Source: Microbacterium ureisolvens
Lineage (GTDB): Bacteria > Actinomycetota > Actinomycetes > Actinomycetales > Microbacteriaceae
Length of the DNA: 64,000 nt
Direction of reading: 5' to 3'
Assembly (NCBI RefSeq): GCF_015278315.1
Contig: NZ_JADIJE010000010.1
Coordinates: 62,001-126,000 of the forward strand
Shown piece after piece: positions 16,211 to 62,336 of the stretch (its first letter is position 1; each line of letters starts with the position of its first letter). A program made the translations under genes and the position numbers. Below the pieces are notes generated by a model. That model had not been told where the DNA came from. It was given only the letters and a program-made list of their open reading frames with translations, and searched no databases.

Positions 16211-16253
16211 GGCGTACAGCCTAATCACCCGCCGCCCCGATGCCGCCGATCTT

Positions 16254-16300
16254 TTGCAAAGAATAGATTGCAAAGAAATACTTGCAAAGAGTTCTTTGCA
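16254..16300 (+). promoter_or_regulatory. Operator array: three TTGCAAAGA direct repeats plus one inverted copy
   Basis: TTGCAAAGAA (16254), TTGCAAAGAA (16268) and TTGCAAAGAG (16282) recur with an exact 14-bp period. The reverse complement TTCTTTGCA follows at 16292-16300. The third copy and the inverted copy form an 8-bp inverted repeat (TGCAAAGA / TCTTTGCA, 2-nt spacer). This AT-rich block stands out in GC-rich DNA. It covers the -35 region of the regulator gene downstream, as expected for autoregulation. Confidence 0.75.
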
Positions 16301-16310
16301 TCGCTATCTT
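16282..16310 (+). promoter_or_regulatory. Promoter TTGCAA - 17 bp - TATCTT for the ArsR-type operon
   Basis: The third operator repeat supplies a -35 hexamer TTGCAA (16282-16287). The -10 is TATCTT (16305-16310) at the ideal 17-bp spacing, and 6 nt later is the ATG, predicting a leaderless mRNA. Confidence 0.65.
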
Positions 16311-16316
16311 GAAGGC

Positions 16317-16955
16317 ATGGCAGAGAACGACAAGGACGCGACCGCCGCCGCGATGGCCCGTTCCGAGCAGCGCCACAGCGAGGATCGCGTCCTCGACACC
16401 GGTGCGCTGCGCGCTCTGGCCCACCCGCTTCGGGTGAAGATCTACGACATCCTCAGCCAGTACGGCCCGCAGACCGCGAGCTCACTGGCCGAGCGCCTGG
16501 GGGAGTCCAGCGGCTCCACCAGCTACCACCTGCGGGCCCTCGCCAAGCAGGACCTCATCCGCGAAGCGGAGGACCGCGGCACAGGACGCGAGCGGTGGTG
16601 GGAGCGCCCTGTGGGAGGCGTCTCCTTCGCCAGCCCCGACGCGATCGCCACCCCCGCAGGACGCGCAGCCACGCAGGTCGTGATGAACGAGTTCCTGCGC
16701 AACCGCAATGAGCAGCTGCTGGACTTCGTCAACCGCGGGATCGGCGGGGAGGACGAGATCTGGCGCGACGGCACGCTCATCTCCACAGCCACAGCCCGCC
16801 TGACCCCCGAGCAGAGCAAGGAGCTGTCGCTCAAGATCATGGCGCTCATCGACGAGACCGTCGACAACTACCGCAATCAGACCGGCGAGAACGTCCGCCC
16901 CGTCACCATCCGGGCCGACCTGTTCCCGCTCCCGCAACTAGGAGAACAGTCATGA
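16317..16955 (+). CDS. ArsR-type winged-helix transcriptional regulator
   Basis: A 212-aa regulator. Residues 30-100 form an ArsR-like winged helix: the block [16 protein letters not shown], then the recognition helix region [17 protein letters not shown]. The rest is a helical effector or dimerisation region with no metal-binding Cys cluster, so a small organic ligand is more likely than a metal. It is the first gene of a three-gene operon ending in an exporter and presumably represses it. The start at 16317 fits the promoter spacing. The TGA overlaps the next ATG by 4 nt. Confidence 0.88.
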
Positions 16956-17182
16956 CCACCATCACGGCAGACGAACTCGCTGTACGCGGATTCCAGAGCT
17001 CCGCGACACGGTTCGACCGCACGCTGCTGCGCGCAGCAGCCGCTCTCGGCGCCTACGCCCTCGGCCGCGTCGAGCGGCGCCACGACGCCGCCCAGCGCCG
17101 CGCGCTCACCGCTCAGGACGTGGCGGCCGGCGCACGCCGAGAGGCCGAGGCCCTCGGCGCCATCGGGATGATTCCGCGATGA
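16952..17182 (+). CDS. Small conserved-looking protein between regulator and exporter, unknown function
   Basis: A 76-aa Ala/Arg-rich helical protein. Residues 20-40 ([18 protein letters not shown]) could form a short amphipathic or membrane-touching helix; the rest is charged. I do not recognise a family. It overlaps the regulator upstream and the transporter downstream by 4 nt each (ATGA both times), so it is translationally coupled. That argues it is a real gene linked to the exporter's work. Confidence 0.7.
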
Positions 17183-18528
17183 GCGAGAGCATCGACACGG
17201 CCGAGCGCACCGGATCGACGGCCGGGCGGGCACGCAGGGTCCCGCTCGGCCGCGACTTCGGCAAGCTGTGGACCGCGGCCGCGTTCAGCAACCTCGCCGA
17301 CGGCGTGGGCCGCGTCGCGGTGCCGCTCATCGCGACCACCCTCACTCGCGATCCGCTCGCGATCTCGGCGATCAGCGCCCTGGCATTCCTGCCGTGGCTC
17401 GTGTTCGGCCTCCCCGCGGGAATGCTCGTCGACCGCTTCGACCGCCGCTGGATCATGGCCATCGCCAACGGCATCCGGGGCCTCGCGGCCGTCGCCCTCG
17501 CGCTGCTGACCGTGTCGGGCGCCCTCGACATCTGGTGGCTCTACGCGGGTGTCCTGGTGTTCGGGTTCGGCGAGACCCTCTTCGACAACGCGACCAACGC
17601 CGTCGTGCCGAGCGTCGTCAAGCGCCCGGCGCTGGACCGCGCGAACGGCTGGCTGCAGGCGGCGCAGATCACGATCGACAGCTTCATCTCCTCGCCGATC
17701 GGCGGAGTGCTCTTCGCCGTCTCCCTCGCGCTGCCCCTGTGGGTGGGCGCGGCGGGCTACCTGGTGCCCATCGTGCTCGCCAGCCTCCTCCCGCTGTCGG
17801 CGGCACGACCGCTGCGCGAAGCGGAGGTGACGCCGACGCGCGCCGAGGCGTCGATCGCCGCGGGCGATCCGCTCGCCGCCGCTGAGGAGGCCGTCGCACC
17901 GACGGCTCCTGCCGCACCGTCCAAGGTGTCGGCGCGCGAGGCGCTGTCGTACCTCTGGCACCACCGCTTCCTGCGTTCGATGGTGATCTTCACCTCGATC
18001 GTGGGCTCGGCGTTCGCCTTCGCGCAGGCGCCGGTGTTCCTGTACTTCCTCGACGTGCACCACGTCGCCCCGGCTGCGATCGGCCTGGTCACCGCGGGCA
18101 TCGGGGTCGGCGGACTGGGCGGGTCGCTGATCGCGTCGTCGCTCGTGGCGCGATTCGGGCGCGGGCGGGTGATGCTCGGGGCGAACTTCGTCGCGGCGAT
18201 CAGCCTTGCAGGGGTGTGGGCGGCCCCGGAGGCGATCTCGGGCACCGTCGCGTACGGCCTGATGGCGGCCGCGGTGTCGGTGTGGAACGTCCCGTGGGGA
18301 GCGCTCCGCCAGACCATCGTCCCTGGGCACCTCTTCGGCCGGGTGCTCGGCATCGGCCGTACCCTCACCTGGGGGATCTTCCCGTTCGCGACGCTGCTCG
18401 GCGGCTGGGTCGCGCGGGTCGACCTGCGGCTGCCGTTCCTCCTCGCGGCGGGAGTCACGCTGGTGGCGACGCTCGTCGCCGTCAGGCTCCTCCTCGAGGC
18501 GTCGAAGCACGACGCGCCGGAGGAGTGA
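17179..18528 (+). CDS. MFS exporter of the drug/metabolite (DHA3-like) type
   Basis: A 449-aa major facilitator with about twelve membrane segments. The loop 2-3 signature [11 protein letters not shown] (motif A-like) is clear. The middle cytoplasmic loop is long and Ala-rich (about residues 210-255). The pattern resembles EntS/MefA-type exporters. Together with the upstream ArsR-type regulator it forms an inducible efflux operon. The substrate is unknown. The start ATG overlaps the small gene's stop. Confidence 0.88.
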
Positions 18529-61089: not shown

Positions 61090-62336
61090 GCGGGGCGCAG
61101 GGCGCCAAAGCCGGCGCGCGGTGGTTCACTCTCTTCACCCTCGCCTGGCTGGCGCTGTGGACGGTGCAGCTCACCCCTCTGCAGCTCCTCATCCCGCTGC
61201 AGCTCGACACGCCCGACGACGCCGACGGCTGGGTCTCGGGTGTCGTCTCGTCGGGTCTCGTGCTCGCCGTCGGCGGCGTCGCCGGCGTCATCGCCGCGCC
61301 CATTGCGGGCGGACTCTCCGACCGCACGAGGGGCCGGATGGGCAGGCGACGGCCGTGGGCGCTGACGGGCGTCTGGCTCGCCACGCTGTCGCTGGTCGCC
61401 ATCGCCTTCGCGTCGGGCCCGTGGGGCGTCGGGGTGGCGTGGGTCGGGGTCTCGGTGGGGATCGCGGTCGCCTCAGCGGCCTTCACGGCCCTCATCGCCG
61501 ACCAGCTGACGACGCAGCGCGGTGCCGCCTCCGCGGCCGTCTCGTCGTCGCAGGCCCTCGGCATCGTGGTCGGCGTGGGCGTGATCGTGCTTCTCGAGCT
61601 GGGCGTCGCGGTGGGCTATCTCGTGCTGGCCGGGTTCCTGGCGGTGATCGGCACCGCCGCCGCGCTGCTGCTGCCCGACCCGCCGGCACCGGCGGACGCC
61701 GCCGTCGCGCGGGAGGTGCGGACGCTGCGCGAGCGCCTCGCCGTGCTCGGCGACCGGGACTTCGCGTGGCTCCTGGCCGGCCGCCTCACCGTCAACATCG
61801 GCAATGCCCTCGGCACCGGCTTGCTGCTGTTCTTCCTGCTGTACGGGCTCCACCGGGATCCGTCGACCGCCGAGGACGAGCTGCTGCTCCTGATCCTCGT
61901 CTACACGCTGTTCGTCGTCGTCGCCTCGATCGTGTCGGGGCGGATCTCCGACCGCACGAGGCGCCGCATCCCGTTCGTCGTCTGGTCCGCCGTGCTCCAG
62001 GGGGTGGCCTCGATCGTGCTCGTGGTCGCACCGTCGCTCACCTCCGCGATGATCGCGGCGGCCCTCCTCGGCATCGGCTACGGCGCGTACATGTCCGTCG
62101 GACTGGCTCTGGGCACAGACCTGCTGCCGTATCCCGAGGACCACGCCCGGGACCTCGGCTTCGTCAACGTGTCAGCGAGCCTCGGGCAGCTCATCGGCCC
62201 GCTCCTGGGCGCGGGACTGGTGGCGCTCGTCGGCGGCTTCTGGCTGCTCTTCTTGGTGGGGGGAGTGGTCTCGATCGCCGGCGGGCTCATGACCTACGCC
62301 ATCCACAGCAGAGAGCGCTCCGGCTCAATCGTCTGA
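61086..62336 (+). CDS. MFS transporter coupled to the beta-glucosidase
   Basis: A 416-aa transporter with twelve hydrophobic segments. The loop SDRTRGRMGRRRPWAL resembles sugar-porter and GPH-like motif A, and a second copy SDRTRRRIPF opens the C-terminal half. Overlap with the GH1 gene argues it imports the beta-glucoside that the enzyme cleaves. Its 3' end overlaps the convergent hydrolase gene by 12 bp. Confidence 0.87.
   Translation: MSGAQGAKAGARWFTLFTLAWLALWTVQLTPLQLLIPLQLDTPDDADGWVSGVVSSGLVLAVGGVAGVIAAPIAGGLSDRTRGRMGRRRPWALTGVWLATLSLVAIAFASGPWGVGVAWVGVSVGIAVASAAFTALIADQLTTQRGAASAAVSSSQALGIVVGVGVIVLLELGVAVGYLVLAGFLAVIGTAAALLLPDPPAPADAAVAREVRTLRERLAVLGDRDFAWLLAGRLTVNIGNALGTGLLLFFLLYGLHRDPSTAEDELLLLILVYTLFVVVASIVSGRISDRTRRRIPFVVWSAVLQGVASIVLVVAPSLTSAMIAAALLGIGYGAYMSVGLALGTDLLPYPEDHARDLGFVNVSASLGQLIGPLLGAGLVALVGGFWLLFLVGGVVSIAGGLMTYAIHSRERSGSIV

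Follow-up and report, generated by a model that had tools for sequence, protein, structure and literature searches.

A 14-bp ladder of TTGCAA cores as a probable autoregulatory operator array of an ArsR-fold regulator in Microbacterium ureisolvens and related actinobacteria

The evenly spaced repeats in front of an ArsR-type regulator gene of Microbacterium ureisolvens very probably constitute the autoregulatory operator array of the regulator that is encoded directly downstream. They lie in a 64,000-nt stretch of DNA (positions 62,001 to 126,000 of contig NZ_JADIJE010000010.1, assembly GCF_015278315.1), which is called the window here, and form a ladder whose rungs are copies of the 9-mer TTGCAAAGA, following each other in steps of 14 bp. 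Autoregulation, as the original prediction had proposed, is the most likely reading of the comparisons described below, since the ladder lies over the predicted promoter of the regulator's own gene and a regulator homologue stands beside the pattern in 49 of the 49 genomes of the family in which the pattern occurs. The features concerned are listed in Table 1.

Table 1. Features of the ladder and of the neighbouring genes (positions are those of the window)
Feature	Position	Strand	Comment
M3 peptidase, 683 aa	14159..16210	-	nearest NCBIfam model Dcp, below cut-off (721 of 944 bits)
Putative -10 TAGGCT of the M3 gene	16218..16223	-	7 nt before start codon ATG; outside the full rungs
Degenerate on-lattice hexamer ATGCCG	16240..16245		14 bp upstream of rung 1
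Rung 1, TTGCAAAGA	16254..16262	+	exact copy
Rung 2, TTGCAAAGA	16268..16276	+	exact copy
Rung 3, TTGCAAAGA	16282..16290	+	exact copy; TTGCAA 16282-16287 is the putative -35 element
Rung 4, inverted copy TCTTTGCAT	16293..16301	-	8/9 bases; core TTGCAT 16296-16301
Putative -10 element TATCTT	16305..16310	+	17 bp after TTGCAA 16282-16287; by consensus
ArsR-fold (HTH_20) regulator, 212 aa	16317..16955	+	start codon 6 nt after the -10
Small ORF, 76 aa	16952..17182	+	start overlaps regulator stop (ATGA)
MFS transporter (MFS_1, MFS_3)	17179..18528	+	downstream of the small ORF

The three exact copies of TTGCAAAGA are the only ones in the window, where dinucleotide shuffling gives an expectation of 0.01, and three exact copies were found in none of 100 dinucleotide shuffles of the window. 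Their starts bear out the exact 14-bp period that had been claimed for the direct repeats. The inverted copy claimed along with them is present as well, but it is a rung of the same 14-bp lattice instead of a separate terminal element. Because the core TTGCAA is self-complementary, that is, its own reverse complement, the core of rung 4 also falls on the register, 14 bp past the core of rung 3, and all four cores share a single register. The direction of a rung is told by the flanking AGA alone, which stands after the core in rungs 1 to 3 and before it, as TCT, in rung 4; rungs 3 and 4 together make up the dyad TTGCAAAGA-N2-TCTTTGCAT. The term 'phased', which had been applied to the repeats, is right for the 14-bp step but not for the helix: at 10.5 bp per turn, 14 bp correspond to 1.33 turns, so that successive rungs face about 120 degrees apart, and three such steps add up to 42 bp, or four helical turns.

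Searches that allow mismatches lead back to the same place. With up to three mismatches, the four-rung pattern matches the window only at the array and its immediate edge (four overlapping matches, both strands counted) and matches 0 of 100 shuffles. In the whole genome (4.49 Mb in 35 contigs), the array is the sole place of the double copy (up to two mismatches) and of the dyad (up to three mismatches), and exact two-core pairs are confined to it. A wider regulon in the same genome was considered and rejected: the other two-core matches, at two places, need a mismatch, and the reversed control also matches, once per strand.

Is the ladder kept where the regulator is kept? Based on a protein search, 76 orthologue loci were found by protein alone. 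The original prediction was to be abandoned if the repeats were absent before orthologous operons, and this refutation failed: a core pair with no more than one mismatch in all is present at a distance of 14 bp in 75 of the 76 loci, compared with eight loci for a distance of 19 bp (mostly a core together with TTGCTA at the -10) and with 0 or 1 locus for any other spacing from 8 to 21. The exception, L025 from Sanguibacter, has the dyad alone, which indicates that the upstream rungs are dispensable in some loci. Between exact TTGCAA, TTGCAT or ATGCAA cores that lie no more than 300 bp upstream of the gene or 60 bp into it, 450 distances were obtained for the 76 loci and the window, and every one of them is a multiple of 14. 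Note that all such counts are taken over related sequences, which are non-independent observations.

For a finer comparison, 105 fragments were used, namely the 76 protein-found ones and 29 found by the DNA pattern, after the removal of six identical ones. The protein-found fragments are quoted apart, since the other 29 hold the pattern by construction. The ladder could be anchored to the promoter in 96 of the 105 fragments, 71 of them protein-found, and nine were left unanchored (L019, L022, L032, L034, L077, L087, L106, L113 and L116); in L077 the 14-bp pair is not placed at the promoter of the regulator. WTGCAW words number 365 in the 96 anchored fragments, with 359 on the lattice and 6 off it, and the corresponding numbers for the 71 protein-found fragments are 263 and 2. 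The core has hardly changed, in contrast to the 8-bp spacers, which have diverged, and several families of the class share the spacing. Functionless tandem-repeat slippage could account for units that are tandem and vary in number, but this contrast between core and spacers, together with the shared spacing, leaves it a negligible probability.

The search was extended to the class with a profile, which found regulator homologues (E up to 1e-15) in 68 of 148 genomes. Thirty loci were fetched, of which six repeat earlier places and 24 are new. Among the 24 new loci, 19 have the 14-bp pair, no pair occurs at the other distances in the range of 8 to 21, and two control words gave no pair in these loci. 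When no core is assumed, lag 14 gives a better self-match than every other lag from 8 to 21 in 12 of the 24 loci, compared with a mean of 1.7 and a maximum of 6 loci in 300 rounds of shuffling. The TTGCAA pair at 14 bp is absent from five of the 30 loci (L169, L180, L181, L183 and L184). Among them, L180 and L184 have a changed core and keep the 14-bp step. For example, TCGCGA and TTGCGA are found at positions 124 and 138 of the upstream slice of L184, as would be expected if the shape of the protein determined the step and its recognition helix determined the core. The upstream slice of L181 has CTGCAG, GTGCAG and CTGCGA at positions 120, 133 and 146, a regular 13-bp step that is possibly a natural variant of the spacing rule, while L169 and L183 have no recognisable ladder.

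The promoter layout proposed for the regulator gene, that is, TTGCAA, 17 bp, TATCTT, 6 nt and the ATG at 16317 to 16319, is found as described, and the putative operator overlaps this promoter, which is predicted by consensus only. TATCTT is the most frequent -10 among the orthologues (32 of 96). The -35 rung is separated from the -10 by 17 bp in 70 of the 71 anchored protein-found fragments, a count that is partly built in, as the anchoring allowed 16 to 18 bp and slightly favoured 17. Between the -10 and the start codon there are 6 or 7 nt in 89 of the 96 anchored fragments (68 of the 71 protein-found ones). Such a gap fits leaderless transcripts, and the regulator promoter under the operator-like array is probably leaderless, as had been claimed. 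The transcript would then start at or beside the ATG, so that control would probably be exerted at initiation and not in a leader.

The linkage of ladder and regulator was also assessed by a search with DNA only, in which a three-rung pattern was used and the reversed pattern served as control. The pattern is present in 49 of 299 family genomes (that of the window included) and the control in 0 of 299; in the phylum, the pattern is present in 8 of 396 genomes and the control in two. One place in each of the 49 family genomes and five distinct places outside the family were examined, and five of the 49 coincide with protein-found loci. The aligned part of a regulator homologue starts no more than 260 bp downstream of the pattern at every one of the 49 family places and at 4 of the 5 outside the family, that is, at 53 of 54 in all; the exception, L119, belongs to another family of the phylum and has the pattern without the regulator. 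Among eight other chosen genomes, five had any exact pairs. In four of these, all the pairs lie in one array, and in the fifth, a Streptomyces genome, the pair pattern occurs at two places, both beside a regulator homologue. The check that had been suggested, a search for repeat clusters at other promoters, gives no further exact pair in the window's own genome, and the places examined in the 49 family genomes all lead to a regulator homologue.

The M3 peptidase gene diverges from the same region, and control shared with it had also been suggested. Of 110 loci, a set which includes the window's own place and five repeats, 74 have a divergent M3 gene no more than 400 bp away. In addition, the degenerate hexamer ATGCCG occupies the place where the -35 of a divergent M3 promoter would fall, and xTGC is found at this lattice place upstream of rung 1 in 22 of 33 scored M3-linked loci of the Microbacterium type (36 were chosen, and L030, L031 and L035 were unscored). 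Both observations would agree with an array that is a shared operator and also controls the peptidase. However, the 14-bp pair is kept in 35 of the 36 loci without M3 within 400 bp (18 of 19 in the protein-found subset), and the M3 gene owns a -10 of the TAGGCT type outside the full rungs, which is exactly TAGGCT in 25 of the 33 scored loci. The M3 gene also looks leaderless, with 6 or 7 nt between -10 and start codon in 29 of the 33, although this count is partly built in because the -10 was found by a fixed expression.

The converse comparison starts from the peptidase. An M3 match was found in 62 of 100 family genomes, and 30 of these loci, that of the window included, were checked with flanks of 1.5 kb for three cores with up to two mismatches. 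All 18 M3 loci whose flanks contain a regulator homologue have the ladder, compared with 0 of the 12 whose flanks contain none. In G040, the genome of one of the M3 loci without a ladder, the ladder is located elsewhere, beside its regulator (L098). As M3 genes without a regulator homologue have no ladder and the M3 gene has its own -10, the array is not simply the operator of the peptidase, and this candidate is ruled out. A shared operator is unlikely too, and what survives of the suggestion is a possible side effect of the array on M3: the ladder tracks the regulator and not the peptidase, but with a degenerate rung at the would-be M3 -35, the bound regulator might still affect M3. The same 12 M3 genes also argue against the binding of the ladder by a different, global regulator, as do the uniqueness of the ladder in its own genome and the local regulator homologue that lies just downstream at nearly all of the 54 examined places; we consider such a regulator very improbable.

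The regulator itself matches the Pfam models HTH_20 (47.3 bits, cut-off 27) and HTH_5 (33.5 bits, cut-off 22), and more weakly, although still above their cut-offs, MarR, HTH_24 and HTH_27; no MerR family is among the 12 Pfam matches listed for it. ArsR/SmtB metalloregulators generally have a cysteine metal site. The 212-aa translation contains no cysteine, and the protein stays below the NCBI curated cut-off for ArsR/SmtB metalloregulators, NF033788 (41.7 vs. 55 bits). In the structural comparison of the predicted model (pLDDT 87.6), 4g6q heads the list with Z 11.2, 169 residues aligned and an rmsd of 4.3 over model residues 22 to 205 (Foldseek E 4.3e-05). The ArsR entries are tied with it by Z and align about 90 to 100 residues, such as 6j05 (ArsR; Z 10.4, 91 aligned, rmsd 3.5) and 1u2w (CadC; Z 10.2, 101 aligned, rmsd 8.7). 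Close orthologues in the protein search belong to Microbacterium, with up to 90% identity over the full length, and the further homologues in the window's own genome are weak (E 5.9e-4 and 9.2e-4). On a Microbacterium plasmid (L073), the regulator frame is interrupted once 87 aa of the match have been read and continues in another frame while the ladder remains, which reflects either a broken copy or a sequencing error.

How the regulator might occupy the rungs can be considered from their number and direction. The number of cores per locus varies in the 96 anchored fragments from 2 (in 5 loci) over 3 (10), 4 (42), 5 (26) and 6 (9) to 7 (4), and the numbers of loci with 2 to 7 cores among the 71 protein-found ones are 5, 7, 30, 19, 7 and 3. 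The dyad is the most fixed part, as the -35 rung is directed to the promoter in 91 of 95 fragments and the rung after it is directed back in 64 of 86 (15 are tied and 7 have the other direction). An extra rung at or just before the start codon, which is absent from the window, is found in 42 of 95 and is reversed in 40 of these. Farther upstream, AGA is on the promoter side in 74 of 92 cores at rung -2, in 41 of 72 at rung -3 (21 ties) and in 18 of 22 at rung -4. The upstream rungs, being mostly of one polarity, do not form a series of perfect dyads. Dimers seated side by side would need one core in common, and odd core numbers occur as well as even ones (40 odd and 56 even of 96; 29 odd of the 71 protein-found), which leaves dimers on alternate pairs, with some rungs possibly spare, or head-to-tail protomers. 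A tiling by dimers through even rung numbers was also considered, and the same counts leave it unsupported. The cooperative loading of several regulator dimers, which had been suggested from the repeats, may occur, but the rung number shows no tie to even values.

The polarity of the upstream rungs, the core that adjacent dimers would need in common and the free core number all agree with rungs bound as head-to-tail monomers in a polar filament, in the manner of BldC, with a polarity that reverses only at the promoter. However, ArsR-fold proteins are generally dimers, and both the fixed dyad at the promoter and the palindromic core suit dimers. In the available parts of the two reports, BldC binds in this manner to a varying number of direct repeats (PMC5859096), whereas LugJ, for which the model uses the same template fold, forms dimers in solution (PMC11980582). 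On balance, we regard head-to-tail binding as possible but rather doubtful. Its fullest form would be a polar spiral of an ArsR-fold regulator, head to tail on self-complementary half-sites in 14-bp steps and inverted in polarity only at the promoter; to our knowledge this mode has no precedent for the ArsR fold, and we hold it to be improbable. If it were true, the protein would fix the step and the rung number would be free to evolve, resulting in a tunable switch.

The preferred reading, autoregulation by the neighbouring regulator, could then work as follows. The left arm of the dyad is the putative -35 element and the right arm lies in the spacer between -35 and -10, preceded by a variable number of upstream rungs of mostly the same polarity. 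On the least assuming reading, the regulator bound to the dyad would cover the -35 and the spacer and shut out RNA polymerase, and would thereby repress its own operon, namely the regulator, the small ORF, which would be translationally coupled to it, and in some lineages the MFS transporter. If more molecules bound to the upstream rungs, each rotated by about 120 degrees, they would increase the local occupancy and steepen the switch, and the bound proteins would follow a spiral path about the DNA instead of lying along one side of it. A ligand would release the regulator.

Export would be no more than a possible core function of the operon, as an MFS gene lies downstream of the regulator in a minority of loci (47 of 110, two of which, L078 and L116, are weak matches with 25 to 27% identity). 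Some of the 110 loci end soon after the regulator: the 34 pattern-found ones carry just about 0.1 to 0.9 kb downstream, so that MFS genes are undercounted there. In contrast to the MFS gene, a small-ORF candidate directly 3' of the regulator is retained for 88 of 110 loci under a loose rule, the set being picked mechanically; loci were dropped if they had no candidate or one of more than 130 aa, as were seven named loci. Under a strict rule (a start of the ATGA type in overlap, 60 to 130 aa), the small ORF is present in 46 of the 76 protein-found loci; of the others, 5 have a longer ORF at the overlap, 8 have a shorter one and 17 have no start. The small ORF is also present in loci without an MFS gene. 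Thus the pair of regulator and small ORF appears to be more widespread than that of regulator and MFS, where the distant small ORFs are candidate homologues. The small ORF of the window has no NCBIfam match and no Pfam match above cut-off, and the scan of four small-ORF members gave no Pfam match above cut-off either. Compared with six orthologues, it shows dS of 0.48 to 1.20 and dN of 0.18 to 0.28, dS being about two- to fourfold dN. The small ORF may be an output of the operon. Downstream of the regulator in L039, L045 and L052, there is a class I tRNA synthetase gene that is oriented towards the operon from its other end.

Autoregulated ArsR operators are ordinary, and the autoregulated ArsR/SmtB repressors share with the present system the fold, the operon that includes the regulator's own gene and the dyad over the promoter. 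Their operators usually consist of one or two dyads, whereas the window has a lattice with one fixed step and a regulator without a cysteine for a metal site. Kfla_6221 of Kribbella flavida (PDB 4g6q) matches the fold over most of the regulator, but it has only 16 to 18% identity to it, the entry is titled 'functionally unknown', and we know of no operator for it. Another parallel, to a characterised protein of similar fold, may be drawn with LugJ of Staphylococcus lugdunensis, which represses the lugdunin transport genes and is released by lugdunin, according to the available part of its description (PMC11980582). LugJ is likewise a winged-helix repressor encoded beside exporter genes, its published dimer model is built on 4G6Q, the top of the structural list given above, and it binds a palindrome between the -35 and the ribosome site of the next gene (PMC11980582). 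However, it binds one 26-bp palindrome and not a ladder, and it represses a divergent transport operon; its known structural link to the regulator is the shared template 4G6Q. The authors attribute a second band in their EMSA more probably to a tetramer than to a second site of low affinity (PMC11980582). BldC of Streptomyces binds cooperatively to a varying number of polar direct repeats at promoters (PMC5859096, as far as available), a trait similar to the 2 to 7 cores of the ladder. In contrast to the ArsR-type regulator, BldC is MerR-like, its repeat is of 9 bp with an AT-rich core, it has many targets, and an inverted rung is unmentioned for its arrays in that part of the text. A lattice in which the step is fixed, the rung number is free and the polarity is reversed at the promoter has no description among the literature matches listed, which mostly exclude subscription journals, and no title among those listed for the 9-mer concerns an ArsR operator.

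The comparisons point to one spacing rule that is kept across families while the rung number and the gene content change. As the rule is constant and the rung number varies, the loci provide a natural series in which one promoter layout carries from 2 up to 7 rungs, which offers a direct test of copy number against the steepness of repression. In addition, an uncharacterised clade of actinobacterial regulators gains a predicted operator, and the small unnamed ORF, apparently found more widely than the transporter, becomes a candidate for an output of the operon.
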